NCBI RefSeq assembly: GCF_014205165.1
Contig: NZ_JACHMZ010000001.1
Coordinates: 4,818,501 to 4,882,500, forward strand
Origin: Micromonospora carbonacea
GTDB lineage: Bacteria; Actinomycetota; Actinomycetes; Mycobacteriales; Micromonosporaceae
Direction of reading: 5' to 3'
Length of the DNA stretch: 64,000 nucleotides
The notes under the pieces were generated by a model that was given only the letters and a program-made list of their open reading frames with translations, was not told where the DNA came from and searched no databases. The translations under genes and the position numbers were made by a program. Within the stretch, counting starts at the first letter, position 1, and each line of letters begins with the position of its first letter. Positions 4,781 through 35,871 of this stretch are shown piece by piece.

Positions 4781-5362
4781 CTAGGCTGCGGCCCGCAGGG
4801 CCAGCTCGACCCGGCGGCGCAGGTCGTCCAGCTCCAGCCCGGCCTCGGCGAGCACCAGCGCGGCCGGGCCGCCGCCCTCGCGCAGCAGCCCGAGCAGGAG
4901 GTGCTCGGTGCCGATGTGCCGGTGCCGCAGCCGCAGCGCCTCGCGCAGCGAGAGCTCCAGCGCCTTCTTCGACCGGGGCGAGAACGGGCCGCCGGGCCGG
5001 TGCCGCCGCCCCCAGCGGCGGCGCGGGGCGGGCGGCGCGGCACGCAGCGCGCCGGGGCCGAAGGACTCCTCGATCCGGGCGACGATCGCGGCCAGGTCGA
5101 TGCCGATCTCGCGCAGCGCGGCGGCGTCGGCCTCGGCGAGCCCCGCGCCGCCCTCGGCGGTGTGCCGGGCCACGGCGGCGCGCAGGTCGGCGGCGCGGAC
5201 TCCGGCGTCGTGCAGCACCCGGGTCGCGAGGTTGTCGGGGTCGGCGAGGACGGCGAGCAGCAGGTGCTCGGTGCCGATCGGGCGCTGCCCGGCGGCCCGC
5301 GCCTCGTGGGCGGCCTGCCTGACCGCCTCGCGGGCCCGGCCGGTGAACCGTTCGAACATCAT
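4781..5362 (-). CDS. Stand-alone Clp N-domain (Clp_N) protein without AAA module
   Basis: A 193-residue protein made only of two Clp N-terminal repeats. The first is MMFERFTGRAREAVRQAAHEAR with GTEHLLLAVLADP. The second is FSPRSKKALELSLREAL with RHIGTEHLLLGLLREGGG (about 120-165). In ClpC these repeats bind substrates and adaptors and are the target of cyclomarin-type peptides. There is no Walker motif, so the protein cannot unfold substrates itself. Its ATG overlaps the stop of the upstream HTH gene (ATGA), so the two are translationally coupled. It could be a ClpC adaptor, decoy or sensor; mycobacterial ClpC2 is a reported precedent for a Clp N-domain decoy (knowledge; application here is inference). 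Confidence 0.85.
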   Translation of the reverse strand: MMFERFTGRAREAVRQAAHEARAAGQRPIGTEHLLLAVLADPDNLATRVLHDAGVRAADLRAAVARHTAEGGAGLAEADAAALREIGIDLAAIVARIEESFGPGALRAAPPAPRRRWGRRHRPGGPFSPRSKKALELSLREALRLRHRHIGTEHLLLGLLREGGGPAALVLAEAGLELDDLRRRVELALRAAA

Positions 5363-5595
5363 TCCTCCCAGGTGCTCGGGACCGCCGGTCGCCCGGCGTG
5401 CTTCTTGTGGACCGCCTGCCGGCTGACCTCCAGCGCGTCGGCGATCTCCTGCCAGGACCAGCCCTGCCGTCGGGCGTTGTCCACCTGGACCACCTCCAGC
5501 CGTTCGAGGAGCCGGCGCAGGGCGCGCACGGCGCGCAGGCCGACCCGGGGGTCGGTGCTGCCGGCCGCCGCCGCGAGTTCCGTCGCGTGACTCAT
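5359..5595 (-). CDS. Small HTH regulator coupled to the Clp N-domain protein
   Basis: A 78-residue protein with a helix-turn-helix near the C-terminus: QGWSWQEIADALEVSRQAVHKKH (about 46-68). It resembles sigma-factor region 4 or MerR-like HTHs. An N-terminal helical part (VGLRAVRALRRLLERLEVVQVDNAR) probably dimerises. ATG at 5595 is chosen because a well-placed -10 ends 6 bp upstream, implying a leaderless mRNA. The promoter is covered by two inverted repeats, so the protein is probably an autorepressor (inference). Its stop overlaps the start of the Clp_N gene. Such pairs recur in actinobacteria as I recall, but I know of no firm function. Confidence 0.8.
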   Translation of the reverse strand: MSHATELAAAAGSTDPRVGLRAVRALRRLLERLEVVQVDNARRQGWSWQEIADALEVSRQAVHKKHAGRPAVPSTWEE

Positions 5596-5824: not shown

Positions 5825-6742
5825 ATGACCCCGCCCGCCGACGCGCCCGTGGTGGCCGCGCTCGGCTCACCGGAGACCGCGCCGCAGGTCGCCCGGCTGG
5901 CCGCGCGGGAGGCCGCCGGTCACGGCCGCCCGCTGCGCCTGCTGCACGCCTTCAACTGGTCGGCGGCGCTGGAGGCCCCGTCGGTGGTCAACCCGCGCGC
6001 CCGGGCCGAGGAGCTGCTCGAAGAGGCCGCCGCAGCCGCCGGCGAGGCGGAGTCGGCGGTGCCGGTCAGCGGCGAGATCGTCGAGGGCGCGCCGGTCGCC
6101 GCCCTGGTCCGCCGCTCCGAGTCGGCGTTCCTCGTCGTCGTCGGTGACGGCGGCATGGCGCGCTGCGGGGCCTGCATCCCGGCCGACGCCCCGGCGGTGC
6201 AGCTCGCCGCCCGCGCCGGCTGCCCGGTGCTGGTGGTGCGCCCCGAGCCGCCGCCGCAGGGCCCCGTCCTCGTCGGCGTCGACGGTTCGCGCAGCTCCCG
6301 CACGGCGCTGGCGTTCGCCTTCGGCTGCGCCGCCCGCCGGTCGGCCCGGCTGCTCGCCGTGCGGGTCGTCGAGCCACCGCCCGAGGACCGGCCGCCCGCC
6401 GCCGCCCCGCCGCCGGGCCCCGGCCCGCACGGCACGTCCGGCCGGCCCGACGCGTACGACCGGCACGGCCTGGACAGCGCGCACGCCGAGCTGGCCGACC
6501 TGGTGGCCCGGTGCGGAGGCCGGCACCCGGAGGTGCCGGTCGAGTGCCACGTCGTCGTCGGCGACCCCGGCCGGGTGCTGGTCGAGCAGTCCCGCTCCGC
6601 GCAGCTCACCGTGGTCGCCCCCCGGGGCGACGAGCCGCTGCGCGGGATGCTCGGCGCGGTCAGCCAGTCGCTGCTCTACCACTCCCCCGCGCCGGTCATC
6701 GTCGTGCGTGGACTGGTGGCCACCGCGCCGGGCGGGGCATGA
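5825..6742 (+). CDS. Double universal stress protein (UspA family), degenerate nucleotide site
   Basis: A 305-residue protein with two Usp domains: residues 1-140 (VVAALGSPETAPQVARLAAREA at the start) and about 150-300 (VLVGVDGSRSSRTALAFAFGCA). The usual ATP-binding pattern G-2x-G-9x-G(S/T) is not seen in either half: the first reads VVVGDGGMARCGACIPADAPA, the second APRGDEPLRGMLGAVSQ. It is therefore probably a non-ATP-binding Usp. A strong GGGGAGGTG precedes the ATG. It opens the dormancy-like island, and paired Usp genes are a hallmark of the mycobacterial DosR regulon (knowledge). Whether it belongs to the regulon here is inference, since no clear copy of the shared dyad lies upstream. 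Confidence 0.88.
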   Translation: MTPPADAPVVAALGSPETAPQVARLAAREAAGHGRPLRLLHAFNWSAALEAPSVVNPRARAEELLEEAAAAAGEAESAVPVSGEIVEGAPVAALVRRSESAFLVVVGDGGMARCGACIPADAPAVQLAARAGCPVLVVRPEPPPQGPVLVGVDGSRSSRTALAFAFGCAARRSARLLAVRVVEPPPEDRPPAAAPPPGPGPHGTSGRPDAYDRHGLDSAHAELADLVARCGGRHPEVPVECHVVVGDPGRVLVEQSRSAQLTVVAPRGDEPLRGMLGAVSQSLLYHSPAPVIVVRGLVATAPGGA

Positions 6743-6756
6743 CGCCCCCACGGTCC

Positions 6757-6771
6757 AGGACCTACGGCCCT
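6757..6771. promoter_or_regulatory. Candidate DosR-like dyad upstream of phosphoketolase
   Basis: The sequence AGGACCTACGGCCCT is a near-perfect inverted repeat about 95 bp before the phosphoketolase start. Read on the other strand it contains GGGCCGTAGGTCC, which matches the dyad at 16368-16381 (GGGCCGAAGGTCCC) at all but one shared position. The mycobacterial DosR box also has GGGAC arms. The binding protein is inferred. Confidence 0.55.
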
Positions 6772-6866
6772 GATCGATCTCCGCCCGCGCCGCGAAGCTG
6801 GACGTGGCCGGGAAAACCCGGCACCCCGGATGCGAACGTCCCCGATCCGCGAGAGGCTAACGCAGC

Positions 6867-9269
6867 ATGGACACCGCTGTAGACCTGCACAGCCCCCTGA
6901 CCGAAGACGAGCTGCGCCGGCTGGACGCCTACTGGCGGGCCGCGAACTACCTGACCGTCGGGCAGATCTATCTGCTGGACAACCCGCTGCTGCGGGAGCC
7001 GCTGCGGCCCGAGCACGTCAAGCCCCGCCTGCTGGGCCACTGGGGCACCAGCCCGGGCCTCAACCTGCTCTACGCCCACCTCAACCGGGTCATCGTCAAC
7101 CGGAAGCTGCCGACGATCTTCATCACCGGCCCCGGCCACGGCGGCCCCGCCCTGGTGGCCAACACCTGGCTGGAGGGCACCTACAGCGAGCTCTACCACT
7201 CGGTGAGCCGCGACGAGACCGGCATGCAGCGGCTGTTCCGCCAGTTCTCCTTCCCCGGCGGCATCCCGAGCCACGTGGCGCCGGAGGTGCCGGGTTCGAT
7301 CCACGAGGGCGGCGAGCTGGGGTACGCGCTGAGCCACGCCTACGGCGCGGCGTTCGACAACCCCGACCTGCTGGTCGCCTGCGTCATCGGCGACGGGGAG
7401 GCCGAGACCGGCCCGCTGGCCGGTAGCTGGCTGTCCAACGTCTTCCTCAACCCGGCCCGCGACGGGGCGGTGCTGCCCATCCTGCACCTCAACGGCTACA
7501 AGATCGCCAACCCGACGGTGCTGGACCGCATCCCCACCGACGACCTGCTGGACATGATGCGCGGCTTCGGCTACCAGCCGTACGTCGTCGCGGGTGACGA
7601 CCCGGCCACCGTGCACCAGGCCCTCGCCGCCACCCTCGACCGGGCCGTCGACGAGATCGCCGACATCCAGCGCCGGGCCCGCTCCGGCGCGCCCGTCGAG
7701 CGCCCCCGCTGGCCGATGATCGTCCTGCGTACGCCGAAGGGCTGGACCGGCCCGGCGGTCGTCGACGGCAAGCAGGTGGAGGGCACCTACCGCGCCCACC
7801 AGGTGCCCATCGCCGAGGTGCGCGACAACCCGGAGCACCTGGCCGAGCTGGAGCGCTGGCTGCGCAGCTACCGGCCGGAGGAGCTGTTCGATCCGACCGG
7901 CGCGCCCGTCGCCGAGCTGACCGCGCTGCCGCCGACCGGTGACCTGCGGATGAGCGCCAACCCGGTCGCCAACGGCGGGCGGGTGCTGCGCGACCTGGAG
8001 CTGCCGGACTTCCGCCGGTACGCCGTCGACGTCCAGCAGCCCGGCGAGCCGGTGGCGGGCGCGACCGGGACGCTCGGCGCGTGGGTCCGCGACGTGATCA
8101 CCGCCAACCCGCGCACGTTCCGGCTGTTCGGCCCCGACGAGGTCGCCTCCAACCGGCTCGGCGCGGCCTTCGAGGTCACCGACCGGGCGTTCGTCGCCGG
8201 CCGGGTCGACGGCGACGACCACCTCTCGCCCGACGGCCGGGTGATGGAGGTGCTGTCGGAGCACCTGTGCCAGGGCTGGCTGGAGGGCTACCTGCTGACC
8301 GGCCGGCACGGCATCTTCACCAGCTACGAGGCGTTCATCCACATCGTCGACTCGATGGTCAACCAGCACGCCAAGTGGCTGAAGGTGACCCGGGGCATCC
8401 CGTGGCGGGAGCCGGTGGCGTCGCTGAACTACCTGCTGTCCAGCCACGTGTGGCGGCAGGACCACAACGGCTTCTCGCACCAGGACCCGGGCTTCATCGA
8501 CCACGTGGTCAACAAGAAGGCCGAGGTGGTGCGGGTCTACCTGCCGCCGGACGGCAACACCCTGCTCTCCACCATGGACCACTGCCTGCGCAGCCGGCAC
8601 TACATCAACGTGGTGGTGGCCGGCAAGCAGCCCGCCCCGAACTGGCTGACCATGAACGAGGCGGTCCAGCACTGCCGGCGCGGCCTGGGCATCTGGGACT
8701 GGGCCAGCACCGACGACGGCGAGGAGCCGGACGTGGTGCTCGCCTGCGCCGGCGACGTGCCGACGCTGGAGACCCTCGCCGCCGCCGAGCTGCTGCGCCA
8801 ACGGCTGCCCGAGCTGAAGGTGCGGGTGGTCAACGTGGTCGACCTGATGCGCCTCCAGCCGCCGTCGGAGCACCCGCACGGCCTGCCCGACAACGAGTTC
8901 GACACCATCTTCACCAGCGACAAGCCGGTCATCTTCGCCTACCACGGCTACCCGTGGCTGATCCACCGGCTCACCTACCGGCGCGCCAACCACGACAACC
9001 TGCACGTGCGCGGGTACAAGGAGGAGGGCACCACCACCACGCCGTTCGACATGGTGATGCTCAACGACCTGGACCGGTTCCACCTGGTCATCGACGTGAT
9101 CGACCGGGTGCCGGGGCTGGCCGCGCGGGCCGCGCACCTGCGGCAGGAGATGGTGGACACCCGGCAGGCGTGCCGCGACTACACCCGCGAGCACGGCTCC
9201 GACGACCCCCGGGTCGCCGAGTGGCGGTGGATCCGGGAGACCGACGCCGAACTGAGGAGCGAGAAGTGA
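6867..9269 (+). CDS. xfp: Phosphoketolase (xylulose-5-phosphate/fructose-6-phosphate)
   Basis: An 800-residue protein matching full-length phosphoketolase. It cleaves xylulose-5-P or fructose-6-P with phosphate to acetyl-P and glyceraldehyde-3-P or erythrose-4-P, using thiamine diphosphate. Visible family motifs are [19 protein letters not shown] near residue 55, [10 protein letters not shown] near 90, the ThDP-binding [14 protein letters not shown] near 175, and [10 protein letters not shown] near 535. The C-terminal domain ends with [23 protein letters not shown] lies upstream of the ATG. The stop overlaps the GTG of a Usp gene (GTGA), so the two are coupled. Acetyl-phosphate production would allow substrate-level ATP synthesis when respiration is limited, which fits the hypoxia-like setting. 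Confidence 0.97.
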
Positions 9270-10126
9270 GCCGTGACGAGATCCTCGTCGGCTACGACGG
9301 TTCCGCCGACGCCACCGTCGCCCTGAACTGGGCGCTCGGCGAGGCGGAGCACAGCGGCCGGCCGGTCCGCCTGGCGTACGTGTTCGAGTGGGTGACCGTG
9401 GCCGGCTGGGTCGGCCCCGGCGTGGCCCCCGGAGTCTGGCCCGACGAGACCGCCCGCCGACAGGTGGAGGAGCTGGTCGGCAAGGCAGCCGCCGACGCCG
9501 CCGCCGCGCGGCCCACGGTGACCGTGCGCGGGGAGGTGTTCGACGGGCCGCCGGCCCTGGTGCTGGAGGAACGCTCCGCCGAGGCGGGCCTGCTGGTGCT
9601 CGGCAGCCGGGGCCACGGCGGGTTCGGCGGCCTGCTCGCCGGCTCCACGGCCGTGTCGGTGACCGCCCACGCGCACTGCCCGGTCGTGGTGGTCCGCGAC
9701 GGCGACACCCCCGCCGGGCGCACCGGCCGGGTCGTGGTGGGCGTCGACGGCTCCGAGACCTCCCTGCTGGCCCTCGGGTTCGCCGTCGAGCGGGCGGCCC
9801 AGCGGGGCGTGCCGCTGCACGTGGTGCGGGCCTGGGAGCCGTCGGCCGACCGGGGACTGGCCGCCGACGACGCGGCGGCGGCGGAACGCGCCGCGCTGGA
9901 CGAGCCGCTGGCCGGCTGGCGGGAGACGTTCCCCGACGTCGCGGTGACCGTCGACGTGGTGGCCGGCCGCCCGGCCGGCGCGCTGGTCGAGGCGAGCCGG
10001 GACGCCCAGCTCGTGGTGGTCGGCAGCCGGGGCCGGGGCGGGCTGCGCGGCATGCTGCTCGGCTCGGTCGGCCAGCAGCTCCTGCACCACGCCCACTGCC
10101 CGGTCGCGGTGGTCCGCGAACGCTGA
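9266..10126 (+). CDS. Double universal stress protein (UspA family)
   Basis: A 286-residue protein with two intact Usp domains. The first carries [19 protein letters not shown] and [16 protein letters not shown]; the second carries [19 protein letters not shown] and [16 protein letters not shown]. Both keep the G-2x-G-9x-GS nucleotide motif, unlike the Usp at 5825. The GTG start overlaps the phosphoketolase stop by 4 bp and has GAGGAGCGAGAA upstream. It is probably an ATP-binding stress protein of the Rv2623 type (knowledge of the family), made in fixed proportion to phosphoketolase. Confidence 0.92.
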
Positions 10127-10131
10127 CGCGC

Positions 10132-10212
10132 AAGGAAGGGCCCCCTCTTAACACCCGGTGTTAGGAGGGGGCCCTTCCTCTACAGAATGCGTTAACAAGG
10201 GGCCCTTCCTTA
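10132..10212. repeat. TAAGGAAGGGCCCC-family dispersed repeat, copy A
   Basis: Two inverted elements stand in tandem. The first begins AAGGAAGGGCCCCCTC and folds back on GAGGGGGCCCTTCCT; then CTACAGAATGCGTTAAC leads to GGGCCCTTCCTTA. It lies exactly between convergent genes (Usp and the metal ATPase). Three relatives occur at 25285, 41150 and 52017. The strong hairpin could terminate transcription from both sides. Confidence 0.85.
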
Positions 10213-10216
10213 CACC

Positions 10217-12538
10217 TCAGTCGGGGAGGGAGAAGTAGTCCTCCTCTTCCTGGGCCAGGTGCAGGCGCAGGACGGCGTCGAGGCCGTACAGCGCGGCGAG
10301 CAGGTCGGTGACCTGGTCGCCGCGCAGCGGCCCGGCACCGGCCTGGGCGAGGTGCCCGCCGATCCGGTCGACCAGCCGGCGGATCTCCACGTGCCCCCGG
10401 CTCATCGGCGAGGTCGCCTCGTCGCTGCCGAGCGGCCCGGCCAGCGCCGGGTAGAGCTGCCGCTCCTCGGCGGCCTCGTGCGGCAGCACCCGCGCGGTGA
10501 GCCGCCCGTGCACCGCGCGCAGGGCCGGCAGGCAGTCGGGCGAGTCGGGGTGCGTGGCGACCAGGTCGGCGGTGTCGCGCAGGGCGGCGAGCACGTCGCG
10601 GATCGCGGCGTGCTCGCCGGCGTACCGGTCGAGCAGCTCCCGGGTGTCCGGCGGGACGTCCCGGCGGCGCAGCCCGCCGCCGAGGGCCCGCAGCGCGTTG
10701 AGGATCACCACGACGTCGATGCCCTCCTGGAGGAACGCCCCGGCCACCGGCGGCAGCCTCCCGGCGGCGGCGACCAGCATCGCCGCCACGGCCAGCGCCA
10801 TCCCGACGACGGCGCTCTGGGTGGCGATGCGGCGGGCGTACCGGGCGATCTCCACGGCGTCGGCGAGCCGGTCGAGCCGGTCGACGGTGAGCACCGCGTC
10901 GGCGACGTCGGCGGAGGCGGTCGCCCCGGTCGCGCCCATCGCCACCCCGACGTCGGCCTCCGCCAGGGCGGGGGCGTCGTTCACCCCGTCGCCGACCATC
11001 ACGGTCACGGCCCGGCGGGACTCCTCGCGGACCCGGGCGGTCTTCTCCTGCGGGGTGCACCGGGCCAGCACGTCGTCGACGCCGACGGCCTGCGCGACCT
11101 GGTCGGCGGTGCCGGGCCGGTCCCCGGTGACCATGACCAGCCGGGTCAGCCCCGCCTCGCGCAGCCGCCGCACGGTGCGGCGGGCGTCCGGGCGCACCGG
11201 GTCCTCCAGCAGGATCGCCCCGAGCGGCTCCCGCTCGTCGCTGACCCAGACGGCCGACCGGCCGGCCAGTTCGGCGCGTTCGGCGGCCCGGGCCGCCCAC
11301 TGCGGCAGCTCCCCGCCGAGCTGGCCGACCCGCACCAGCCGCCCGTCGACCCGGCCGGTGACGCCGCGCCCCGGTTCCTCGGTGACGTCGGTCGGGTCGG
11401 CCAGCGCCAGGCCCCGCCCCCGGGCCTGCCGGACCAGGGCGGCGGCCAGCACGTGCGGGGAGAGCTGCTCCACGGAGGCGGCCAGCCGCAGCACCTCGTC
11501 CCGGTCGCCGCCGGGGGCGACCACCGTCTCGGCGGCCCGGGGTCGACCGGCGGTGAGCGTGCCGGTCTTGTCGACCAGCAGGGTCCGGGCCCGGCCCAGC
11601 GCCTCCAGCGAGCCGCCGTCGCGCACCAGCACCCCCCGCCGGGCCACCCGGGACAGCCCGGAGACGATCGCGATGGGGGTGGCCAGCAGCAGCGGGCAGG
11701 GGGTGGCCACCACCAGCACCGCCACGGCCCGCACGAACTCGCCGGAGAGCCACCAGCCCAGCCCGGCCAGCACCAGCGTGAACGGCACGAACGCCGCCGC
11801 GTACCGGTCGGCCATCCGCACCATCGGGGCCTTGCGCGCGGTGGCCTCCTCGGCGAGCCGGACGATCCCCGCGTACGTGCTGGCCGCCGCGCTCCTCGTC
11901 GCCCGCAGCCCGAACCCGGCCCCGGCGTTGGCCACGCCGCTGGCCACCTGCTCGCCGGCCGCCCGCTGCACGAGCCGGGACTCGCCGGTGACGACCGACT
12001 CGTCGAGGGTGGCGGGCTCCTCGACGGTCCCGTCGACGGGCACCACGTCGCCGGGGCCGACGACGAGCCGGTCGCCGGCCGCGACCCGGTCCAGCGGGAC
12101 CGTCTCGATGCCGCCGCCGGGGACCCGCCGCCGCGCGGTGCGCGGGGCCCGTTCCAGCAGGGCGCGCAGGTCGCGGGTCGCCCGGCGCTGGGCGTACGCC
12201 TCCAGCGCGCGGCCGGTGGCGAGCATCAGCGCGATCACCGCGCCGGCCAGGTACTCCCCGACGACGAGCGCGCCGGCCAGCGCGAGGACGGCGATGACGT
12301 CCACCCCGAACTGCCGCGCCCACAGCCGACGCAGCATGGACCAGGCCGCCGGGGCCAGCGCGGCCACGGTCGCCGCCGCCCACAGCCAGTCCGCCCAGGT
12401 GCGGCGGCCGGCGAGCCACAGCCCCGCCCCGGCCGGCACGGCCAGCGTCAGCGCGGCCAGCGGCGCCCACTGGAGCCCGCGCGCCCAGCGCTGCCGCACC
12501 GGCCGCTGCGGTACGCACTCCCGCGCCTCGGTGCCCAC
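10217..12538 (-). CDS. P1B-5-type metal-transporting ATPase with C-terminal hemerythrin domain
   Basis: A 773-residue P-type ATPase. Motifs in order are TGES at 184-187, the metal-site helix TPCP at 279-282, the phosphorylated DKTGT at 323-327, and GDGVNDAPAL near 505. There is no N-terminal CxxC metal domain. TPC in place of CPC or SPC marks the P1B-5 class, members of which are linked to iron/nickel export. From about residue 615 a helical domain carries the hemerythrin pattern (GEH, HEAAEERQLYP, GHVEIRRL, LHLAQEEEDYF), as described for an Acidothermus P1B-5 enzyme (recalled). The tail may bind a diiron-oxygen centre and make transport sensitive to oxygen or redox state (inference). It is divergent from an Acg-like nitroreductase. 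Confidence 0.93.
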   Translation of the reverse strand: MGTEARECVPQRPVRQRWARGLQWAPLAALTLAVPAGAGLWLAGRRTWADWLWAAATVAALAPAAWSMLRRLWARQFGVDVIAVLALAGALVVGEYLAGAVIALMLATGRALEAYAQRRATRDLRALLERAPRTARRRVPGGGIETVPLDRVAAGDRLVVGPGDVVPVDGTVEEPATLDESVVTGESRLVQRAAGEQVASGVANAGAGFGLRATRSAAASTYAGIVRLAEEATARKAPMVRMADRYAAAFVPFTLVLAGLGWWLSGEFVRAVAVLVVATPCPLLLATPIAIVSGLSRVARRGVLVRDGGSLEALGRARTLLVDKTGTLTAGRPRAAETVVAPGGDRDEVLRLAASVEQLSPHVLAAALVRQARGRGLALADPTDVTEEPGRGVTGRVDGRLVRVGQLGGELPQWAARAAERAELAGRSAVWVSDEREPLGAILLEDPVRPDARRTVRRLREAGLTRLVMVTGDRPGTADQVAQAVGVDDVLARCTPQEKTARVREESRRAVTVMVGDGVNDAPALAEADVGVAMGATGATASADVADAVLTVDRLDRLADAVEIARYARRIATQSAVVGMALAVAAMLVAAAGRLPPVAGAFLQEGIDVVVILNALRALGGGLRRRDVPPDTRELLDRYAGEHAAIRDVLAALRDTADLVATHPDSPDCLPALRAVHGRLTARVLPHEAAEERQLYPALAGPLGSDEATSPMSRGHVEIRRLVDRIGGHLAQAGAGPLRGDQVTDLLAALYGLDAVLRLHLAQEEEDYFSLPD

Positions 12539-12638
12539 CTGCGGATCCTCTCAACGGGCGGGGTCGGCGAGGCGGCCAACGACCGAATCGCGCCCGCCAC
12601 CTGTCATGATCGTTGGAGGCGAACGACCTGGGCGCGAC

Positions 12639-12652
12639 GGGACCTGCGTACC
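12639..12652. promoter_or_regulatory. Candidate DosR-like dyad between metal ATPase and nitroreductase
   Basis: GGGACCTGCGTACC lies in the 211-bp divergent region, about 100 bp from both starts. It matches the reverse complement of the dyad at 16368 (GGGACCTTCGGCCC) at 11 of 14 positions. The right arm is imperfect, so this is the weakest of the three copies. Confidence 0.4.
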
Positions 12653-12749
12653 GTGCGTCCGGGGGTGCCGGTGCCGCAGGATGGAGCGGCAACCCCGCCC
12701 GGGGCACCGCGCGGTGGGGCACGATGGGCTGAGACGAAAGGTCGTGACG

Positions 12750-13760
12750 ATGAGCCACGAGACGCCGGCGACGGACCGCCCGCTGACCACCGCGCTGGCG
12801 GAGGCCGCCGCGACGGCCGGCCACGCGCCCTCGGTGCACAACACGCAGCCGTGGCGCTGGCGGGTGCTGCCCGACGCGTTGGAGCTGCGCGTGGTGCGGG
12901 ACCGTCAGCTCGCCGCCACCGACCCGGAGGGCCGGCTGCTGGCGGTGAGCTGCGGCGCGGCGCTGCACCACGCCCGGGTGGCCCTCGCCGCCGAGGGCTG
13001 GGCGTTCGTGGTGGAGCGGCTGCCCGACCCGGGCGACGCGGAGCTGCTGGCCCGGATCGGCGACCTCAAGCGCGTCGAGGCCGACCCCGACGCCATGCGG
13101 GTGGTGCAGTGCATGCAGGTGCGGCACACCGACCGCCGCCCGGTCAGCGACGAGCCGGTGCCGACGGCCGCGCTCGGCGACATCGCCGCGGCGGTCTCCG
13201 CCGAGGGCGCGCGGCTCCAGGTGCTCAACTTCGATCAGGTGATGGAGCTGGCCGCCGCGGCCTCGCACGCCGCGACGGTGGAGGCGGAGGATTCGCAGCT
13301 GAGCGAGGAGCTGGACTACTGGACGAGCCGGGCGGGCACCGGCACGGGCCTGCCGCCGGAGGTGCTGCCCGAGCAGGCGCAGCAGACCACCGTGCCGGGC
13401 CGGGACTTCGGCCGCCCGGGCACCCTGCCGATCGGGGCGGGCCACGACCGGGCCGCGGCCTACGGGGTGCTCTTCGGCGACGAGGACGAGCCGGACAGCT
13501 GGCTGCGGGCCGGCGAGGCGCTGTCGGCGGGGTGGCTGACGGCGACCCGGCTGGGTGTGTCGATGGTGCCGCTGTCGGGCGTCGTCGAGGTGGAGGGCAC
13601 CCGGCAGACCCTGCGGCAGGTGCTCGCCGGCCTCGGCTACCCGTACCTCGTGCTGCGGATGGGGATCGCGGACCCGGCGCACGCCGGCCCGCCGCACACC
13701 CCCCGGCTCCCCGCGGAGCAGGTCGTCGACACGTCCGCGGTCCGCGGACAGGGTGGGTGA
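12750..13760 (+). CDS. Acg-like nitroreductase family protein
   Basis: A 336-residue protein of the Acg (Rv2032) nitroreductase family. It has HAPSVHNTQPWRWRV at residues 19-33, LLAVSCGAALHHARVAL near 65, MQVRHTDRRPVSD near 120, and a C-terminal LRMG-x-P. The family is a divergent, enlarged nitroreductase fold; the mycobacterial protein binds FMN poorly and its reaction is unsettled. ATG at 12750 is preceded by GAAAGG; a GTG two codons earlier is possible. It sits 64 bp before the sensor kinase gene and opposite the P1B-5 ATPase. Its closest relative in the window is the nitroreductase at 16514, so the regulatory pair is flanked by paralogues. Confidence 0.88.
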   Translation: MSHETPATDRPLTTALAEAAATAGHAPSVHNTQPWRWRVLPDALELRVVRDRQLAATDPEGRLLAVSCGAALHHARVALAAEGWAFVVERLPDPGDAELLARIGDLKRVEADPDAMRVVQCMQVRHTDRRPVSDEPVPTAALGDIAAAVSAEGARLQVLNFDQVMELAAAASHAATVEAEDSQLSEELDYWTSRAGTGTGLPPEVLPEQAQQTTVPGRDFGRPGTLPIGAGHDRAAAYGVLFGDEDEPDSWLRAGEALSAGWLTATRLGVSMVPLSGVVEVEGTRQTLRQVLAGLGYPYLVLRMGIADPAHAGPPHTPRLPAEQVVDTSAVRGQGG

Positions 13761-13815
13761 ACAAGCGGACAGGATGCGTGAGCGAGGCTGGGCCGGTGCG
13801 TCTGCCGGGCGATAG

Positions 13816-15564
<1,749 letters not shown>

Positions 15565-15692
15565 CCCGGCGCGACGACCGGTTCGCGCTGCCCTGCCGGG
15601 CGGCGGCGCCGCTGCGCGACCGCTGGCCCGGGCTGCCTGTCCGACGGCGCGGCCGCTGCGCGACGGCCGGCCCGACGGGTGCCGGCGTCCGG

Positions 15693-16331
15693 TCAGTGCG
15701 CCTTGCCGAGGAGGCGGGTGGCCAGCACGGCCGCCTGGGTGCGCCGCTCCAGGCCCAGCTTGGCCAGCACGCTGGAGACGTAGTTCTTCACCGTCTTCTC
15801 GGCGAGGAACATCTTGCCGGCGATCTCCCGGTTGGTCAGGCCCTCCGCGACGTACTCCAGGATGCGCCGCTCCTGCTCGGTGAGGGTCTTCAGCTCGCGG
15901 GGCTGCTCCACGCCGCTACGGATGCGCTCCAGCACCCGGGTGGTGATCGCCGGGTCGAGCAGGGACTGGCCGGCGGCGACCCGGCGCACCGCGTCGACCA
16001 GGTCGGTGCCGCGGATCTGCTTGAGCACGTAACCGGACGCGCCGGCCATGATCGCCGCGAACAGCGCCTCGTCGTCCTCGTACGAGGTGAGGATCAGGCC
16101 CTTGATCGACGAGTCGACGGCGCGGACGTCGCGGCACACGTCGATGCCGTTGCCGTCGGGCAGCCGGGCGTCGAGGATCGCCACGTCGGGCCGCAGCGCG
16201 GGGATGCGGCGGGCCGCCTCCTGGGCGGAGCCCGACTCCCCCACCACCTCGATGTCGCCGCTGTTGGTGAGCAGGTCGGCAAGGCCACGACGGACGACCT
16301 CGTGGTCGTCGAGCAGGAACACCCGGATCAT
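15693..16331 (-). CDS. DosR/DevR-like NarL-family response regulator
   Basis: A 212-residue regulator. The receiver domain (1-120) has acidic residues DDH at 8-10, phospho-acceptor Asp54 in AILDARLPDG, and LTSYEDDEALFAAIMAGASGYVLKQI. The LuxR-type HTH is LTEQERRILEYVAEGLTNREIAGKMFLAEKTVKNYVSSVLAKLG near 150-195. Length, Asp54 and the HTH closely resemble mycobacterial DosR. It should be phosphorylated by the convergent GAF kinase and bind GGGAC-type dyads. One such dyad lies 37 bp upstream of its own start and is shared with the divergent nitroreductase, which implies autoregulation (inference). Confidence 0.93.
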   Translation of the reverse strand: MIRVFLLDDHEVVRRGLADLLTNSGDIEVVGESGSAQEAARRIPALRPDVAILDARLPDGNGIDVCRDVRAVDSSIKGLILTSYEDDEALFAAIMAGASGYVLKQIRGTDLVDAVRRVAAGQSLLDPAITTRVLERIRSGVEQPRELKTLTEQERRILEYVAEGLTNREIAGKMFLAEKTVKNYVSSVLAKLGLERRTQAAVLATRLLGKAH

Positions 16332-16367
16332 CCCTCGTTTCTACCCCCTCGGGCCGGGTGCCCGCAC

Positions 16368-16381
16368 GGGCCGAAGGTCCC
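16368..16381. promoter_or_regulatory. Candidate DosR-like dyad between regulator and nitroreductase
   Basis: GGGCCGAAGGTCCC forms an interrupted inverted repeat in the 182-bp divergent region, 37 bp before the response regulator start and about 130 bp before the nitroreductase start. It is the best-formed of three related dyads in this island (see 6757 and 12639). Confidence 0.6.
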
Positions 16382-16513
16382 TACCGCCGCCGCGCGGCGG
16401 TGGGCTGGGGGTCCCGGCGCAGACGGGACGTCCGGCCCTGCCCGCCGACCGCCCTGGTCACGCACCGTGGAGGAGGACCAGACGGGGCGGCACGACTGCC
16501 ACGGGAGGGGATC

Positions 16514-17491
16514 ATGATGGAGACCGGCTTCACCGTCGAGCAGCTCAGGACCGCCGCCACCGACGCCGTGCGGGCGCCGTCGCTGCACAACAGCCAGCCG
16601 TGGCGGTTCCGGCTGCGCGACGGCGGCATCGAGGTGCTGCTGGACCGCGAGCGCCGGCTGCCGGCGACCGACCCGAGCGGCTGGGGCGCCCGGATCGCCT
16701 GCGGGGCGGCCCTGTTCAACCTGCGGCTGGCGCTGGCCGTCGCGGGCACCCCGGCGACGGTGCGGCTGCGCCCGTACCCGGCGGAACCCGACGTGCTGGC
16801 CCGGTTGGTCCCGGACGTGCCGCGCCGGCCCACCCCGGCCGAGCAGACCCTGTACGGCGTCATCCCGCACCGGTTCAGCAACCGGGCCCCGTTCTGGCCC
16901 GACCCGGTGCCGGCCGACGTGCGGTGGCGGCTCGGCGAGGCGGCCCGCGCCGAGCAGGGCTGGCTGGAGCTGGTGATCGGGGTGAGCGCGGTCAACGCGT
17001 TCGCCGAGGTCGCCCGCAGCGCCAACCGGGTGCTGGAGCGCGACCCCGCCTACCGGGCCGAGCTGGCCGAGTGGGTGCGCAGCGCGCCCGCGTCCGACGG
17101 GATCCCGGCCGCCGCCGGCGGCCCGCTGGGCGAGCCGCAGGACCTGCTGCCCAGCCGCGGCTTCGGCGGGCGCAGCCGCGCGCCGGGGCGCGACTTCGAG
17201 CCGGAGCCGCTGGTGGCGGTGCTCGGCACCGCCGGCAACACCACCACCGATCAGGTCGTGGCCGGGCAGGCCCTGCAACGGGTGCTGCTCACCGCCACCG
17301 ACGCCGGGCTGGGCGTGTCGATGATGTCCCAGCCGATCGAGGTGCCGGGGGCGCGGGAGGCCCTGCGGCTGTCCCTGGGCCGGTTCGGCACCCCGCAGAT
17401 GGTGATGCGGGTCGGCTACGGCCAGCCGGGCTCGCCGACCCCCCGCCGCAGCGTCGACGAGGTGCTGGACGTGCCGGTCGTCCGGGCCTGA
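16514..17491 (+). CDS. Acg-like nitroreductase family protein
   Basis: A 325-residue relative of the nitroreductase at 12750. It has RAPSLHNSQPWRFRL at about 17-31, RIACGAALFNLRLAL near 58, YGVIPHRFSNRAPF near 112, and LLTATDAGLGVSMMSQPIE near 255. It probably uses flavin and NAD(P)H, or serves as a flavin store; the substrate is unknown. GGGAGGGG lies 3 bp before ATG 16514, so the second ATG at 16517 may also be used. It is divergent from the DosR-like gene with the best-conserved dyad between them, the layout expected of a direct target. Confidence 0.88.
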   Translation: MMETGFTVEQLRTAATDAVRAPSLHNSQPWRFRLRDGGIEVLLDRERRLPATDPSGWGARIACGAALFNLRLALAVAGTPATVRLRPYPAEPDVLARLVPDVPRRPTPAEQTLYGVIPHRFSNRAPFWPDPVPADVRWRLGEAARAEQGWLELVIGVSAVNAFAEVARSANRVLERDPAYRAELAEWVRSAPASDGIPAAAGGPLGEPQDLLPSRGFGGRSRAPGRDFEPEPLVAVLGTAGNTTTDQVVAGQALQRVLLTATDAGLGVSMMSQPIEVPGAREALRLSLGRFGTPQMVMRVGYGQPGSPTPRRSVDEVLDVPVVRA

Positions 17492-17571: not shown

Positions 17572-20511
17572 ATGGCCAGCTTCGCGATACTCGGGCCGCT
17601 CGAGGTGGCCGTGGCCGGGCGGACGGTCACCCCGCGCAGCGGCAGGCAGCGGGCGCTGCTGGCCGTCCTGCTGGTCAACGCCGGCCGGGACACCGGGCTG
17701 GCGCAGATCCTCGGCGCGCTGTGGGGCGACGCGCCGCCCGACACGGCCGTCGGGCAGGTGCAGACGCTGATCTGGCGGCTGCGCGGGGTGCTCGGCGACG
17801 ACGCCATCGCCACCCGCCCGGGCGGGTACCGGCTCACCGTCGCCGACGCCGACCTCGACGCGCGGGTGTTCGCCGCCGGCGCGGCCGAGGCCGCCGCGCT
17901 GGCCCGGTCGGGCCGGGCGGCCGAGGCGGCCCGCCGCTACGGCGAGGCGCTGGCCCTGTGGCGCGGCCCGGTCCTGGCCGACGTGCGCCTGCCGGGCGAC
18001 CCGCACGCCGCCGGGTTCCCCGCCGCCGTGGCGGAGCTGACCGAGCTGCGCCTGGCCGTGGAGCGCGACCGGGTGGACGTCGAGTTCGCCCTCGGCCGGC
18101 ACGCCGAGCTGATCCCCGCCCTGCACCGGATGGTCGACGCCGAGCCGCTGCGGGAGGAGCTGCGGGAACGGCTGATGCTCGCGCTGCACCGCACCGGCCG
18201 GCGGGCCGAGGCGCTGGAGACGTACCGGCGGGGCCGGGCGGCGACCGTGGCAGAGCTGGGCCTGGAACCCGGTCGGGGGCTGCGGGAGCTGCACCGGCGC
18301 ATCCTCGACGGCGACCCGCTGCTGGACGCCGCCGAACCCGCCCCGGCGGCGTCCCCGCCCGCGCCCCCGGCGGCCCAGTTGCCGATGGACGCCGCCGACT
18401 TCGTCGGCCGGCACGACCTCGCGTCCCGGCTGGCCGCCCTGCTGGCCGCGCCACCGGCCGGCGGCCCCGCCGCGGACGCCGGGCAGGCGGCCGCGCCGCC
18501 GGTCGTGGTGGTGTCCGGCGCGGCCGGGAGCGGCAAGACGACCCTCGCGGTCCACGTCGCGCACCTGGTGCGGGACCGGTTCGGCGACGGGCAGCTCTTC
18601 GTCGACCTGCGCGGCGGCGGCGAGCCGCACGACCCGTCGACCGTGCTGGGCCGGTTCCTGCACGCGCTCGGCGAGGACCCCCGGGCGGTGCCGGCCGACA
18701 CCGACGAGCGGGCGGCGCTGTTCCGGGCCCGCACGGCCGGGCGACGGCTGCTCGTGGTGCTGGACAACGCCGCCGGGGAGAACCAGCTCCGGCCGCTGCT
18801 GCCGGCCGAGCCGGGCTGCGCGGTGCTGGTGACCGCCCGTCGCCGGCTCACCGCGCTGCCCGGCGCGCACCACGTCGACCTGGGCGTGTTCGCCGCCGAC
18901 GAGGCCGTGGACCTGCTGCGGCACGCGATCGGCGACGGCCGGGTCGCCGCCGAGCACGCCGACTGCCTGCGGGTCGCCGAACGCTGCGGATACCTGCCGC
19001 TGGCCATCCGGATCGCCGGGGCGCGGCTGGCCGCCCGGCCGCACTGGCCGGTGGCGAAGCTGGCCGGGCAGCTCGCCGACGAGCGGGCCCGCCTCGACGT
19101 GCTGCGCACCGGGGACCTGGCGGTGCGCTCCAGCCTCGCCACCAGCTACCACGAGCTGGACCCGACCGAGCGGCGGCTGCTGCGGCTGCTCGGCGGGGTG
19201 GACCTGCCCCGGGTGCCGGGCTGGGCGGCCGCCGCGCTGCTGGACCGCTCGCCGACCGAGGGCGAGGAGCTGACCGAGCGGCTCGTCGAGGCCCGCCTGG
19301 TGGATGCCGACGGCGGCGGCTACCGGCTGCACGACCTGGTCCGGGCGTACGCGCGGGAGCTGCTGGACGCCGACGGCGCGCCCGGTGAGCGGACGGCGGC
19401 GCTGGGACGGCTCACCGGCGGGTGGCTGACGCTGGCCGACGAGGCGTACCGGCGTACCGGCGGGGGTTTCCGGCGGGGCGTGGCCGGCGCCGCCCCGCGC
19501 TGGTCGCGGTGGACGGCGGCCGAACGCGACGCCGTGCTCGGCGACCCGGTGGCCTGGTTCGAGGCGTCCCGAGGGATGCTGGTCGGGACGGTGCGGCGGG
19601 CCGCGGCGGCCGGGCTGGTCGAGCCGGCGTGGAACCTCGCCAACACCCTGGGCCGGCTGTTCGAGCTGCGCGAACACCTCGACGACTGGGCCGGCGCGAC
19701 GACGGCGGCCCTGGACGCCTGCGTGGCCGCCGACGCCGACGCGGGCCGGGCCTGGCTGCTGCGGTCCCTCGGCGAGCGGCACCTCAACCTCGACCGCCTC
19801 GACGACGCGCTGGCCTGCTTCGACGCGGCGCTGGCCCGCTTCGAGCGGCTCGGCGAGCGCAGGGGGCAGGCGCTGGCGCTGCGCGCGGCGGGCACCGCCT
19901 ACCGGCTCCAGCGGCGCGACGCCGAGGCGATGGCCGCGCTGAGCCGGGCGAAGGCGATCACGGTGGAGCTCGGCGACCGGGCCGGCCAGGCGCAGGTGCT
20001 GTTCGGCGTCGGCGCGGCGCACCGGGTGGCCGGGCGGCCCGGGCCGGCGGAGGCGGCGTTCCGGCAGGCGCTGGCGATCTTCGGGGAGCTGGGCGACCGG
20101 TTCGGGGAGGCGTACACGTCGACGAGCCTGGCCCTGGTGCTCGGCGGGCGCGGCGCGGACGCCGACGCCGAGGCGCTGCTGGCGCGGGCCCTCGGGCTGT
20201 GCCGGGAGCTGGGCTACCGGCGGGGCGAGGCGATCTCCCTGGGGCACCTGGGCGAGCTGCACCTGCGTACGGGCGCGCACGAGCGGGCGGTGGCGGAGCT
20301 GACGGAGGCGGTCGCCGGGGCCCGGGAGGTCGGCGACGGCATCGGCGAGCTGATCGCGCTGCGCCGCCTCGGCGCGGCGTACCTGGCGTTGGGCCGGTTG
20401 CCGGCGGCCCGGTCGGCGCTGCGCTACTGCCTCGCCCTGTGCCGCGAGCACGGCGAGGACGGCGAACGGGAGCGGGCGCTGCGCCTGCTCGGCGAAGTAC
20501 GGGCCGGCTGA
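17572..20511 (+). CDS. AfsR/SARP-type transcriptional regulator with NB-ARC and TPR domains
   Basis: A 979-residue multidomain regulator. The N-terminal OmpR-like winged helix spans residues 1-95 (FAILGPLEVAVAGRTVTPRSG; VGQVQTLIWRLRGVLG). The bacterial transcriptional activation domain spans about 100-245. The NB-ARC ATPase has Walker A GAAGSGKTTLAVHVA near 315-329 and LLVVLDNAA as Walker B near 395. A TPR region spans about 690-975 (repeats such as ERLGERRGQALALRAAGTAYR). This is the AfsR/SARP architecture, which activates secondary-metabolite or morphogenesis genes in Streptomyces. No biosynthetic cluster lies next to it, so its targets are unknown. The next gene downstream encodes an exported glycosidase-like protein, 149 bp away. 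Confidence 0.92.
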   Translation: MASFAILGPLEVAVAGRTVTPRSGRQRALLAVLLVNAGRDTGLAQILGALWGDAPPDTAVGQVQTLIWRLRGVLGDDAIATRPGGYRLTVADADLDARVFAAGAAEAAALARSGRAAEAARRYGEALALWRGPVLADVRLPGDPHAAGFPAAVAELTELRLAVERDRVDVEFALGRHAELIPALHRMVDAEPLREELRERLMLALHRTGRRAEALETYRRGRAATVAELGLEPGRGLRELHRRILDGDPLLDAAEPAPAASPPAPPAAQLPMDAADFVGRHDLASRLAALLAAPPAGGPAADAGQAAAPPVVVVSGAAGSGKTTLAVHVAHLVRDRFGDGQLFVDLRGGGEPHDPSTVLGRFLHALGEDPRAVPADTDERAALFRARTAGRRLLVVLDNAAGENQLRPLLPAEPGCAVLVTARRRLTALPGAHHVDLGVFAADEAVDLLRHAIGDGRVAAEHADCLRVAERCGYLPLAIRIAGARLAARPHWPVAKLAGQLADERARLDVLRTGDLAVRSSLATSYHELDPTERRLLRLLGGVDLPRVPGWAAAALLDRSPTEGEELTERLVEARLVDADGGGYRLHDLVRAYARELLDADGAPGERTAALGRLTGGWLTLADEAYRRTGGGFRRGVAGAAPRWSRWTAAERDAVLGDPVAWFEASRGMLVGTVRRAAAAGLVEPAWNLANTLGRLFELREHLDDWAGATTAALDACVAADADAGRAWLLRSLGERHLNLDRLDDALACFDAALARFERLGERRGQALALRAAGTAYRLQRRDAEAMAALSRAKAITVELGDRAGQAQVLFGVGAAHRVAGRPGPAEAAFRQALAIFGELGDRFGEAYTSTSLALVLGGRGADADAEALLARALGLCRELGYRRGEAISLGHLGELHLRTGAHERAVAELTEAVAGAREVGDGIGELIALRRLGAAYLALGRLPAARSALRYCLALCREHGEDGERERALRLLGEVRAG

Positions 20512-34860: not shown

Positions 34861-34883
34861 AACTGCGCAGCACACGTGGATGG

Positions 34884-34955
34884 TGGGCGATACTGGGTTT
34901 GAACCAGTGACCTCTTCCGTGTCAAGGAAGCGCGCTCCCACTGCGCCAATCGCCC
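34884..34955 (-). tRNA. tRNA-Val (GAC)
   Basis: A 72-nt cloverleaf. GGGCGAT pairs with ATCGCCC, the anticodon stem CTTCC/GGAAG encloses loop TTGACAC with anticodon GAC, and the T-arm contains GGTTCAAACC. CCA is not encoded. Its sequence is identical to the tRNA at 35609. Confidence 0.97.
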
Positions 34956-35017
34956 GCGCTCACCGGCCCGCGGCAGATGCCGGCCCGGCTGCGGTCGGCC
35001 CCGGAGGGCGGATCGCG

Positions 35018-35090
35018 AGCGGACGACGGGATTCGAACCCGCGACCCTCACCTTGGCAAGGTGATGCGCTACCAGCTGCGCTACGTCCGC
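35018..35090 (-). tRNA. tRNA-Gly (GCC)
   Basis: A 73-nt cloverleaf. Acceptor GCGGACG pairs with CGTCCGC, the anticodon loop TTGCCAA reads GCC, and the T-loop region is GGGTTCGAATCCC. Its sequence is identical to the tRNA at 35799. It lies 62 bp upstream of tRNA-Val on the same strand. Confidence 0.97.
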
Positions 35091-35121
35091 GTGCCGCAGG
35101 CGTTCGCCGGCGACGGGGTGA

Positions 35122-35151
35122 ACTGTACCCGATGGCAAGATCGCCGAACAA
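35122..35151 (-). promoter_or_regulatory. Promoter of the Gly-Val tRNA pair
   Basis: TTGTTC (plus 35146-35151) and TACAGT (35122-35127) lie 18 bp apart on the minus strand, about 32 bp upstream of tRNA-Gly. The sites are reasonable but imperfect. Confidence 0.5.
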
Positions 35152-35251
35152 ACTCCCCTCGCGTACGCGGCGAGCGCCGCCGATTACGCAGTTCACCGGC
35201 GGGGTACTTGTCCACCTCGACAGCACACTGCATCCCCCGAAGGAGGCTGTC

Positions 35252-35491
35252 GTGGGTATCGGTACGAGCATCTTCCTGATCGCGGTCGGCGCGATCCTCA
35301 CGTTCGCCATGGACGCCACCGTCGGCGGCGTCGACCTGGACGTCGTCGGCTGGATCCTGATGGCCGCCGGCGCGCTCGGCCTCGTCATGACCACGCTGGT
35401 CTGGGGCCGCCGTCGCGAGGTGGTCACCACCACCGAGCCGGTCGAGTACCGCCGCGTCGAGGAGCGTCGGGACGTCGCGCCGCCGCTGTAG
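35252..35491 (+). CDS. Small DUF6458-type membrane protein
   Basis: A 79-residue protein with two transmembrane segments: GIGTSIFLIAVGAILTFAM at 2-20 and VVGWILMAAGALGLVMTTLVW at 31-51. A charged tail follows (RRREVVTTTEPVEYRRVEERR). The GIGTSIFLIAVGAILTFA opening is typical of a short actinobacterial family (DUF6458) of unknown function. GTG at 35252 has GAAGGAGG 6 bp upstream. It lies between the two tRNA groups, transcribed against them. Confidence 0.82.
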   Translation: MGIGTSIFLIAVGAILTFAMDATVGGVDLDVVGWILMAAGALGLVMTTLVWGRRREVVTTTEPVEYRRVEERRDVAPPL

Positions 35492-35567
35492 GCGAGCCCG
35501 CCGAGATCTCGCCCTCTCCGCCGCGCACGCTTCCGCACGGCGAACCGGGCGGCGGACTCGATGGCGA

Positions 35568-35600
35568 AACGGCCCGGCACCTGTGCGGTGCCGGGCCGTT
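35568..35600. terminator. Bidirectional terminator between small membrane gene and tRNA cluster
   Basis: AACGGCCCGGCAC (35568-35580) and GTGCCGGGCCGTT (35588-35600) pair perfectly over 13 bp with a 7-nt loop. On the minus strand TTTCGCC follows. It lies 9 bp after tRNA-Val and should also stop the plus-strand gene. Confidence 0.8.
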
Positions 35601-35608
35601 ACCCGTGG

Positions 35609-35680
35609 TGGGCGATACTGGGTTTGAACCAGTGACCTCTTCCGTGTCAAGGAAGCGCGCTCCCACTGCGCCAATCGCCC
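35609..35680 (-). tRNA. tRNA-Val (GAC)
   Basis: A 72-nt tRNA identical to that at 34884. It is the last gene of the Gly-Cys-Val array. Confidence 0.97.
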
Positions 35681-35693
35681 TCGTCAACTGCCG

Positions 35694-35764
35694 AGGTGGA
35701 GACGGGATTTGAACCCGTGTACACGGCTTTGCAGGCCGTTGCCTCGCCTCTCGGCCACTCCACC
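35694..35764 (-). tRNA. tRNA-Cys (GCA)
   Basis: A 71-nt cloverleaf. GGTGGAG pairs with CTCCACC, the anticodon loop CTGCAAA reads GCA, and the T-arm has GGGTTCAAATCCC. It lies between tRNA-Gly and tRNA-Val and is the only one of the three not repeated in the second group. Confidence 0.97.
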
Positions 35765-35798
35765 GAGGTTGCCCCCGACATGCGTGGCGGCAGATCCG

Positions 35799-35871
35799 AG
35801 CGGACGACGGGATTCGAACCCGCGACCCTCACCTTGGCAAGGTGATGCGCTACCAGCTGCGCTACGTCCGC
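35799..35871 (-). tRNA. tRNA-Gly (GCC)
   Basis: A 73-nt tRNA identical to that at 35018. It is the first gene of the Gly-Cys-Val array. Confidence 0.97.

Follow-up and report, generated by a model that had tools for sequence, protein, structure and literature searches.

A DosT/DosR-type gene island with predicted DevR boxes and a linked phosphoketolase gene in Micromonospora carbonacea

The island, its sensor, and its regulator

The single 7,528,541-base chromosome of Micromonospora carbonacea carries, between positions 4818501 and 4882500 (the 64-kb stretch analyzed here, called the window), a gene island in which a DosT/DosS-like sensor kinase and a DosR/DevR-like response regulator lie among genes for double universal stress proteins (Usp1 and Usp2), a phosphoketolase (Xfp), a metal-transporting P-type ATPase, and two flavin mononucleotide (FMN) oxidoreductases of the Acg family (Table 1). 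Codon-based gene calls, combined with domain assignment by Pfam and NCBIfam, recover all eight island genes that a first-pass annotation of this DNA had claimed. That annotation overlooked two features: a hemerythrin domain at the C terminus of the ATPase, and predicted DevR boxes.

Table 1. Island genes and predicted sites (window positions), and the second island (chromosome positions)
Feature	Position	Strand	Basis
Usp1, double universal stress protein	5825..6742	+	PF00582, two stretches, E 4.5e-30
Predicted box CAGGACCTACGGCCCT, upstream of xfp	6756..6771		10.2 bits, fourth in 64 kb; conservation 0.94
Phosphoketolase (Xfp)	6867..9269	+	PF09364/PF03894/PF09363; NF003619 1475 bits, cut-off 962
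Usp2, double universal stress protein	9266..10126	+	PF00582, E 2.1e-58
P1B-5-type metal ATPase, C-terminal hemerythrin-like domain	10217..12538	-	PF00122, PF00702, PF01814
Weak box-like sequence CGGGACCTGCGTACCG, before Acg1	12638..12653		Spotted by eye, unscored
Acg1, Acg-family FMN oxidoreductase	12744..13760	+	NF047509 279 bits, cut-off 199; PDB 2ymv E 1.9e-33
DosT/DosS-like kinase (GAF-A, GAF-B, HisKA_3, HATPase)	13825..15564	+	Pfam; GAF-A versus DosT 2vzw E 4.3e-53
DosR/DevR-like, NarL-type response regulator	15693..16331	-	PDB 3c3w E 1.8e-72
Predicted box CGGGCCGAAGGTCCCT	16367..16382		13.6 bits, second in 64 kb; ~40 bp before regulator start; conservation 0.97
Predicted box CGGGACGTCCGGCCCT	16424..16439		15.3 bits, best in 64 kb; ~80 bp before Acg2; conservation 0.94
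Acg2, second Acg-family FMN oxidoreductase	16514..17491	+	NF047509 319 bits, cut-off 199; PDB 2ymv E 2.7e-31
Second island	2,170,783-2,182,320 of the chromosome		Pfam, NCBIfam

Seven of the genes, the ATPase gene being excluded, recur in the same order in 19 of the 20 loci of a first genus set, and in 45 of the 49 judgeable Micromonospora, Salinispora, or Verrucosispora loci of a second set that overlaps the first (59 loci, of which 10 lie on contigs too short for this count). Because the order is kept across the genus loci, the seven-gene cluster goes beyond chance. The start of usp2 overlaps the end of xfp (9266 versus 9269). Acg1 and Acg2 both exceed the NF047509 cut-off, as members of the family of the Rv2032/Rv3131 oxidoreductases. 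For Acg2, an alternative longer frame from 16358 would span two predicted boxes; the start chosen by the gene call is 16514.

The kinase finds its best PDB match in the GAF-A domain of DosT (2vzw), and then in DosS: 88 of 144 GAF-A residues (61%) are identical to DosT, versus 78 of 150 to DosS. The HHPPM segment singled out in the first-pass annotation is present, and the second of its two His residues is the one that aligns with the haem ligand, H149 in DosS and H147 in DosT. The H-box is also as claimed, with His396 as the phospho-His. Specifically, the aligned haem-pocket residues are His147 (proximal ligand) and Tyr169 (distal), and the channel or gate residue is Gly85, as in DosT, whereas DosS has Glu87. 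The protein thus shows the domain makeup of DosS, DosT, and OsdK, namely, a GAF-A domain with proximal His and distal Tyr, GAF-B, HisKA_3, and HATPase; no NCBIfam model scores above its cut-off for it. In alignments restricted to matches running from before residue 60 to beyond residue 500, all 100 Micromonosporaceae rows (the window and two overlapping sets) have H147, Y169, and G85. Of 20 rows taken from the rest of the order, all have the His and the Tyr, and 19 have the Gly.

Eleven matches to the kinase occur on the chromosome. Only this kinase covers GAF-A; the others begin at query residue 325 or beyond. A match at E 1e-60 or better exists in 64 of 72 same-genus genomes. Among 80 rows kept, the closest kinase belongs to Micromonospora haikouensis (94%), and Micromonospora, Salinispora, or Verrucosispora account for all of the top 57.

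The regulator is likewise matched best by its presumed mycobacterial counterpart: its top PDB match is DevR (3c3w), with 122 of 207 residues (59%) identical. All 15 DevR positions that were checked are the same, including D54, T82, K104, K179, K182, N183, T198, and T205. Alignment to DevR confirms Asp54, earlier likened to that of DosR. Together with this receiver Asp, the protein carries K179, K182, and N183, as do DosR, DevR, and OsdR; these three residues presumably contact DNA. Among the 25 best NCBIfam matches listed, no regulator model exceeds its cut-off.

The kinase and regulator genes are convergent, an arrangement that the first-pass annotation had called unusual. The description holds relative to known cases, but within its own clade convergence is the rule: it is seen in 59 of 59 Micromonospora, Salinispora, and Verrucosispora loci (57 of them with the two genes within 500 bp) and in all 20 loci of the first set. 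In 21 other Micromonosporaceae, the pair is convergent in 3 loci and divergent in 8; in the remaining 10, the stretch contains no regulator reaching 50% identity. Elsewhere in the order, a tandem pair prevails (11 of 20 loci), with 3 divergent and 2 convergent pairs, and 4 loci lack such a regulator. Given these counts, and given that Streptomyces has an osdR-osdK operon, the layout is unusual yet fixed in the clade. Within the literature that we searched, this convergent layout is new.

The ATPase contains the motifs TPCP and QExxD-NALR, located in one and in another transmembrane helix, respectively, in what we take to be the definition of the P1B-5 type. Its hemerythrin-like domain shows the ligand pattern HxxxE-HxE-HxxxE. 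Two forms of the protein occupy this locus. Among 40 loci in which at least 350 ATPase residues were matched, 24 encode a full-length protein with the hemerythrin domain (23 of these show the ligand pattern), 13 encode a protein that ends at 626-641 residues without the domain, and in 3 the gene is cut or broken. We built a quick tree from the kinase and Xfp of 50 rows, comprising loci with near-full matches to both proteins and with no broken or doubtful ATPase. On this tree, the short form needs two changes, or one if rows lacking the ATPase are omitted, and absence of the ATPase needs seven. The presence of two forms of a P1B-5 ATPase at one orthologous locus is new within the literature that we searched, and it constitutes a natural experiment on the role of the hemerythrin domain, a role called unclear in the available text of a 2022 review (PMC9388753).

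A recurring association concerns the phosphoketolase. Xfp passes the cut-offs of four NCBIfam phosphoketolase models and falls below those of two. We searched 150 genomes of the order for both a DosS/T-type kinase and xfp, and 59 genomes outside the family have both. In 18 of these 59, the two genes are at most 10 kb apart, versus about 0.5 expected from genome size; in 25, they are at most 25 kb apart, versus about 1.1 expected. The 18 linked genomes span six families, and some families contribute several from one genus, so the 18 linkages are not 18 independent events. No report of a link between phosphoketolase and a DosR-type system was found in the literature searched, and we regard the recurring tie as new within that scope. 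In its available text, the Rhodococcus equi genome paper mentions xfp and a table of DosR boxes separately.

Predicted boxes in the island and across the chromosome

We scanned for DevR/OsdR boxes with a palindromic matrix (W1) made from 25 Streptomyces coelicolor OsdR sites (Table 1 of PMC5069765), which score 11.3-18.3 bits. The two best matches in the window fall in the gap between the regulator and Acg2 genes, the third (position 56636, 12.6 bits) lies inside a gene, and the fourth lies between usp1 and xfp. As for DosR, DevR, and OsdR, boxes are therefore predicted before the regulator's own gene and before candidate targets. No 14-mers of the regulator/Acg2 gap are better conserved than its boxes, at 0.97 and 0.94 versus a gap mean of 0.71 (21 sequences). 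The same is true of the box in the Usp1/xfp gap, at 0.94 versus a mean of 0.69 (20 sequences). A site of at least 9.5 bits occurs in the regulator/Acg2 gap of 18 of 20 genus relatives, 15 of which have two. In the Usp1/xfp gap, 12 of 19 relatives have one; 4 more have a site of 7.8 bits, and 3 score lower. For background, only 3 sites of at least 9.5 bits occur in 102,020 bp outside the islands (4,000 bp of which was scored twice), a sample that omits the islands and the stretches holding other candidate sites (L114, L116, and L118).

Outside the family, the boxes fade. Of five xfp loci scored with W1, one exceeds 9 bits (L099, 9.2 bits), three reach 5.2-7.7 bits, and one (L110) has none. Thus, control of xfp in those organisms is not supported by boxes.

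The whole chromosome was also searched for box patterns, with reversed patterns as controls, and these searches pointed to another island, 2.64 Mb from the first (L114, L115, and L256). It encodes a pyruvate formate-lyase (TIGR01255, 1122 bits against a cut-off of 994), a radical S-adenosylmethionine activase, and an alcohol dehydrogenase, along with two double Usps, Hsp20, a P2-type cation ATPase, and a Crp-like protein. Sites are predicted there, at 2172846, 2175621, 2181529, and 2182320, by a second matrix (W2) for which the window island and its relatives served as the training set. The first of these sites falls in the final bases of the ATPase gene, ahead of a Usp. The P2-type ATPase is an accessory gene: 27 of 72 genus relatives have it (one of them in two pieces) at an identity of no less than 78%, and 22 of the 27 best-matching loci (our own and 26 relatives) have a W1 site of at least 9.9 bits no more than 200 bp upstream of the match. 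Pyruvate formate-lyase is present in 23 of 81 genus genomes, our own included. In 20 of the 22 relatives having the gene, we examined the gap before it or before the preceding dehydrogenase: 15 have a site (W1 at least 9.5 bits or W2 at least 11.5 bits), and W1 alone finds just 7. In one relative, a phosphoketolase-like gene, recognized by eye from its translation (L284, 2360-4762), adjoins the gene for pyruvate formate-lyase, and a box-like site lies upstream of each.

Single sites, each scored in this genome only, lie at three further positions. CBS proteins are DosR targets in mycobacteria, and a gene for a CBS-BON protein here has three box-like sites upstream (2655438-2656243, L116; W2 sites 2656196-2656243). 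W2 also marks CGGGACCAACGGCCCT, at 896005 (L118), between an aldehyde dehydrogenase and an FHA-domain protein. Finally, a flavohaemoglobin gene is divergent from one for an Rrf2-family (NsrR-like) regulator at 4495310-4497194 (L258, 5310-7194), and between them lies a predicted strong DevR-type box, CGGGACCTTCGACCCT; this flavohaemoglobin site (L016) scores 17.0 bits by W2. Four of the chromosome's five double Usps belong to the two islands; the fifth, at 3.24 Mb, has no site of 11 bits within its 3.4-kb locus. Acetate kinase is encoded by a single copy, and no box-like site lies near it within the match locus of about 4 kb. The first-pass annotation had set a compact island here against the scattered mycobacterial regulon. 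Given the predicted boxes at 2.17-2.18, 2.656, 0.896, and 4.496 Mb, the presumptive regulon is not confined to the window.

A putative low-oxygen switch and its alternatives

We consider it very probable, from the genes, residues, and boxes described above, that the island houses the control center of a DosT/DosR-type (OsdKR-like) switch responding to oxygen and nitric oxide (NO), together with some of its targets. The notion is that the kinase would hold haem in GAF-A, and that oxygen bound to the haem would keep the kinase off. Loss of oxygen, or binding of NO or carbon monoxide (CO), would trigger autophosphorylation on His396, and the phosphate would then pass to Asp54 of the oppositely encoded regulator. 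In the regulator/Acg2 gap, the phosphorylated regulator would bind the DevR boxes of 14-16 bp and so raise expression of its own gene and of Acg2; it would also bind the box before xfp-usp2, raising expression of both. Boxes elsewhere could be bound in the same way, both in the second island, with its Usps, Hsp20, P2-type ATPase, alcohol dehydrogenase, and pyruvate formate-lyase, and at the single sites. The predicted output is a low-oxygen program of stress proteins, flavin oxidoreductases, metal export, and fermentative carbon routes. Those routes would lead from Xfp via acetyl phosphate to acetate kinase, and through pyruvate formate-lyase and alcohol dehydrogenase.

The phosphoketolase link suggests that a long-known dormancy switch also directs carbon to acetyl phosphate under low oxygen. 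Acetyl phosphate phosphorylates OsdR in vitro (PMC5069765). One can imagine, as an improbable extension, a metabolic latch: acetyl phosphate made by Xfp would phosphorylate the regulator, and the regulon would stay on after re-oxygenation of the kinase until acetate kinase drained the pool. If so, the DosR-type switch in Micromonosporaceae would be a fermentation switch.

Several observations weigh against an oxygen/NO switch with these targets. The xfp box scores below the weakest of the 25 training sites, and no site of at least 9.5 bits occurs in 2 of 20 regulator/Acg2 gaps or in 7 of 19 Usp1/xfp gaps. The number of sites in the window is no higher than in shuffled sequence, and the best scores of 20 shuffles range from 10.6 to 16.1 bits, 7 exceeding 13.6 and 1 exceeding 15.3. 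Because shuffles match the scores of the window, scores alone prove nothing; position does. Genome-wide, the box patterns likewise show no clear excess over reversed controls (6 versus 9, 43 versus 35, and 21 versus 57), so the argument for the boxes draws on position and conservation. Ahead of Acg1 and the kinase, this genome has just the weak box-like sequence; strong sites appear in the Acg1/ATPase gap of a few relatives only, and the box-like sequence is not the conservation peak of the gap. The S. coelicolor matrix yields no box before Usp1 in the window, nor any of at least 9.5 bits there in 19 relatives. In the kinase, the position of DosS H89 and DosT R87 is occupied by Ile87, like neither. 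Eight of 72 genus members lack a kinase match at 1e-60, although some of these are fragmented assemblies.

How the sensor would work is where the principal alternative arises. A DosS-like kinase could act as a redox sensor or a CO/NO sensor, in which case the island would answer the state of electron transport rather than oxygen. Both DosS and DosT are PDB matches within the GAF-A family, DevS has been discussed as a redox sensor (PMC5069765), and Ile87 is typical of neither protein. Yet the gate Gly is that of DosT, not the Glu87 of DosS, in every family row, and GAF-A as a whole is nearer DosT; we therefore judge a redox or CO/NO sensor to be unlikely, if the most credible of the alternatives. 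Far less credible is a GAF-A domain that has lost haem and senses another ligand, its pocket being kept merely by descent. Haem binding cannot be deduced from sequence alone, but the invariance of the proximal His and distal Tyr, within the family and elsewhere in the order, makes such a loss very improbable.

The target set can be questioned as well. The neighbors could form a general stress cluster that happens to lie beside a DosR-type pair, with the regulator gene and Acg2 as the sole true targets. The lack of a strong box before Usp1 or Acg1 in this genome would fit such an arrangement, as would the variable presence of the ATPase between species. In contrast, conservation in the gap before xfp peaks at the box, linkage of xfp to such kinases extends far beyond the family, and the stretch around the kinase includes a Usp or Acg match in 16 of 20 loci from other parts of the order. 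A chance neighborhood of this kind thus seems to us quite unlikely, and we favor the oxygen/NO switch with the wider target set.

Several features flank the island or lie farther along the window. Adjoining Acg2, at 17572-20511, is a gene for an AfsR/SARP-like regulator with BTAD, NB-ARC, and TPR parts; it is matched in just 2 of 80 loci (L146 and L167), some contigs ending early, and it therefore falls outside the conserved unit. To the left, at 4781-5595 on the minus strand, genes for a Clp N-domain protein and a small helix-turn-helix protein are neighbors in many Micromonospora. Five tRNA genes on the minus strand at 34881-35871 (two Val (gac), two Gly (gcc), and one Cys) lie in the stretch of lowest G+C in the window.

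Comparison with known DosR-type systems

The closest described counterpart is S. coelicolor OsdK/OsdR (SCO0203/SCO0204), with its core regulon SCO0167-SCO0219. In the available text of PMC5069765, that system has a DosT-like kinase, a DevR-like regulator, and the same box, and its clustered targets include Usps and a nitroreductase, as here. OsdR binds such sites in vitro, the OsdR box conforms to that of DevR, and osdR is reported to be induced by low oxygen and by an NO donor (PMC5069765). The clustered core around osdRK described there also means that a compact layout, which the first-pass annotation had called unusual, is not new. In Streptomyces lividans, a putative pyruvate formate-lyase, pyruvate phosphate dikinase, and alcohol dehydrogenase are co-expressed with osdR (PMC6302529), which rules out control of pyruvate formate-lyase as a new finding. 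What is already known from Streptomyces thus includes the switch and its box as well as the clustered core and fermentation genes (PMC5069765; PMC6302529). We also considered phosphoketolase as a classical DosR-regulon gene, and rejected the idea: it is absent from Table 1 of PMC5069765 and from the main text of PMC6302529. The two genera differ in that S. coelicolor has an osdR-osdK operon with nitrate reductase nearby, whereas Micromonospora has a convergent pair, xfp and a P1B-5 ATPase in the cluster, and fermentation genes in the second island.

For the ATPase, the nearest described relatives are the hemerythrin-bearing P1B-5 protein of Acidothermus cellulolyticus and Nia of Sinorhizobium meliloti, which share with it the domain order and an HxE ligand in place of HxxxH (PMC9388753). 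The last ligand motif is HxxxEE here and HxxxxD there. Furthermore, the Micromonospora gene lies in a DosR-type island, and some sister species lack the domain at the same locus.

Mycobacterium tuberculosis DosS/DosT-DosR (also DevS/DosT-DevR) shares with the Micromonospora system the GAF-A haem pocket, the HisKA_3 kinase, the DosR residues, and the Acg and Usp families, and its box resembles that of OsdR. The first-pass annotation had held that the island matches the mycobacterial DosR regulon. A DosT/DosR-type pair does stand beside DosR-regulon-like genes, but the match is partial. To our knowledge, neither phosphoketolase nor a hemerythrin-fused P1B-5 ATPase is a classical member of the M. 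tuberculosis DosR regulon. Hsp20 and a P2-type ATPase are expected in a DosR regulon, and these sit in the second island instead. Finally, M. tuberculosis has two such kinases and Micromonospora one, its gene convergent with that of the regulator. The island places a very probable DosT/DosR-type switch, with a single such kinase in place of two, in a genus known for its antibiotic producers.

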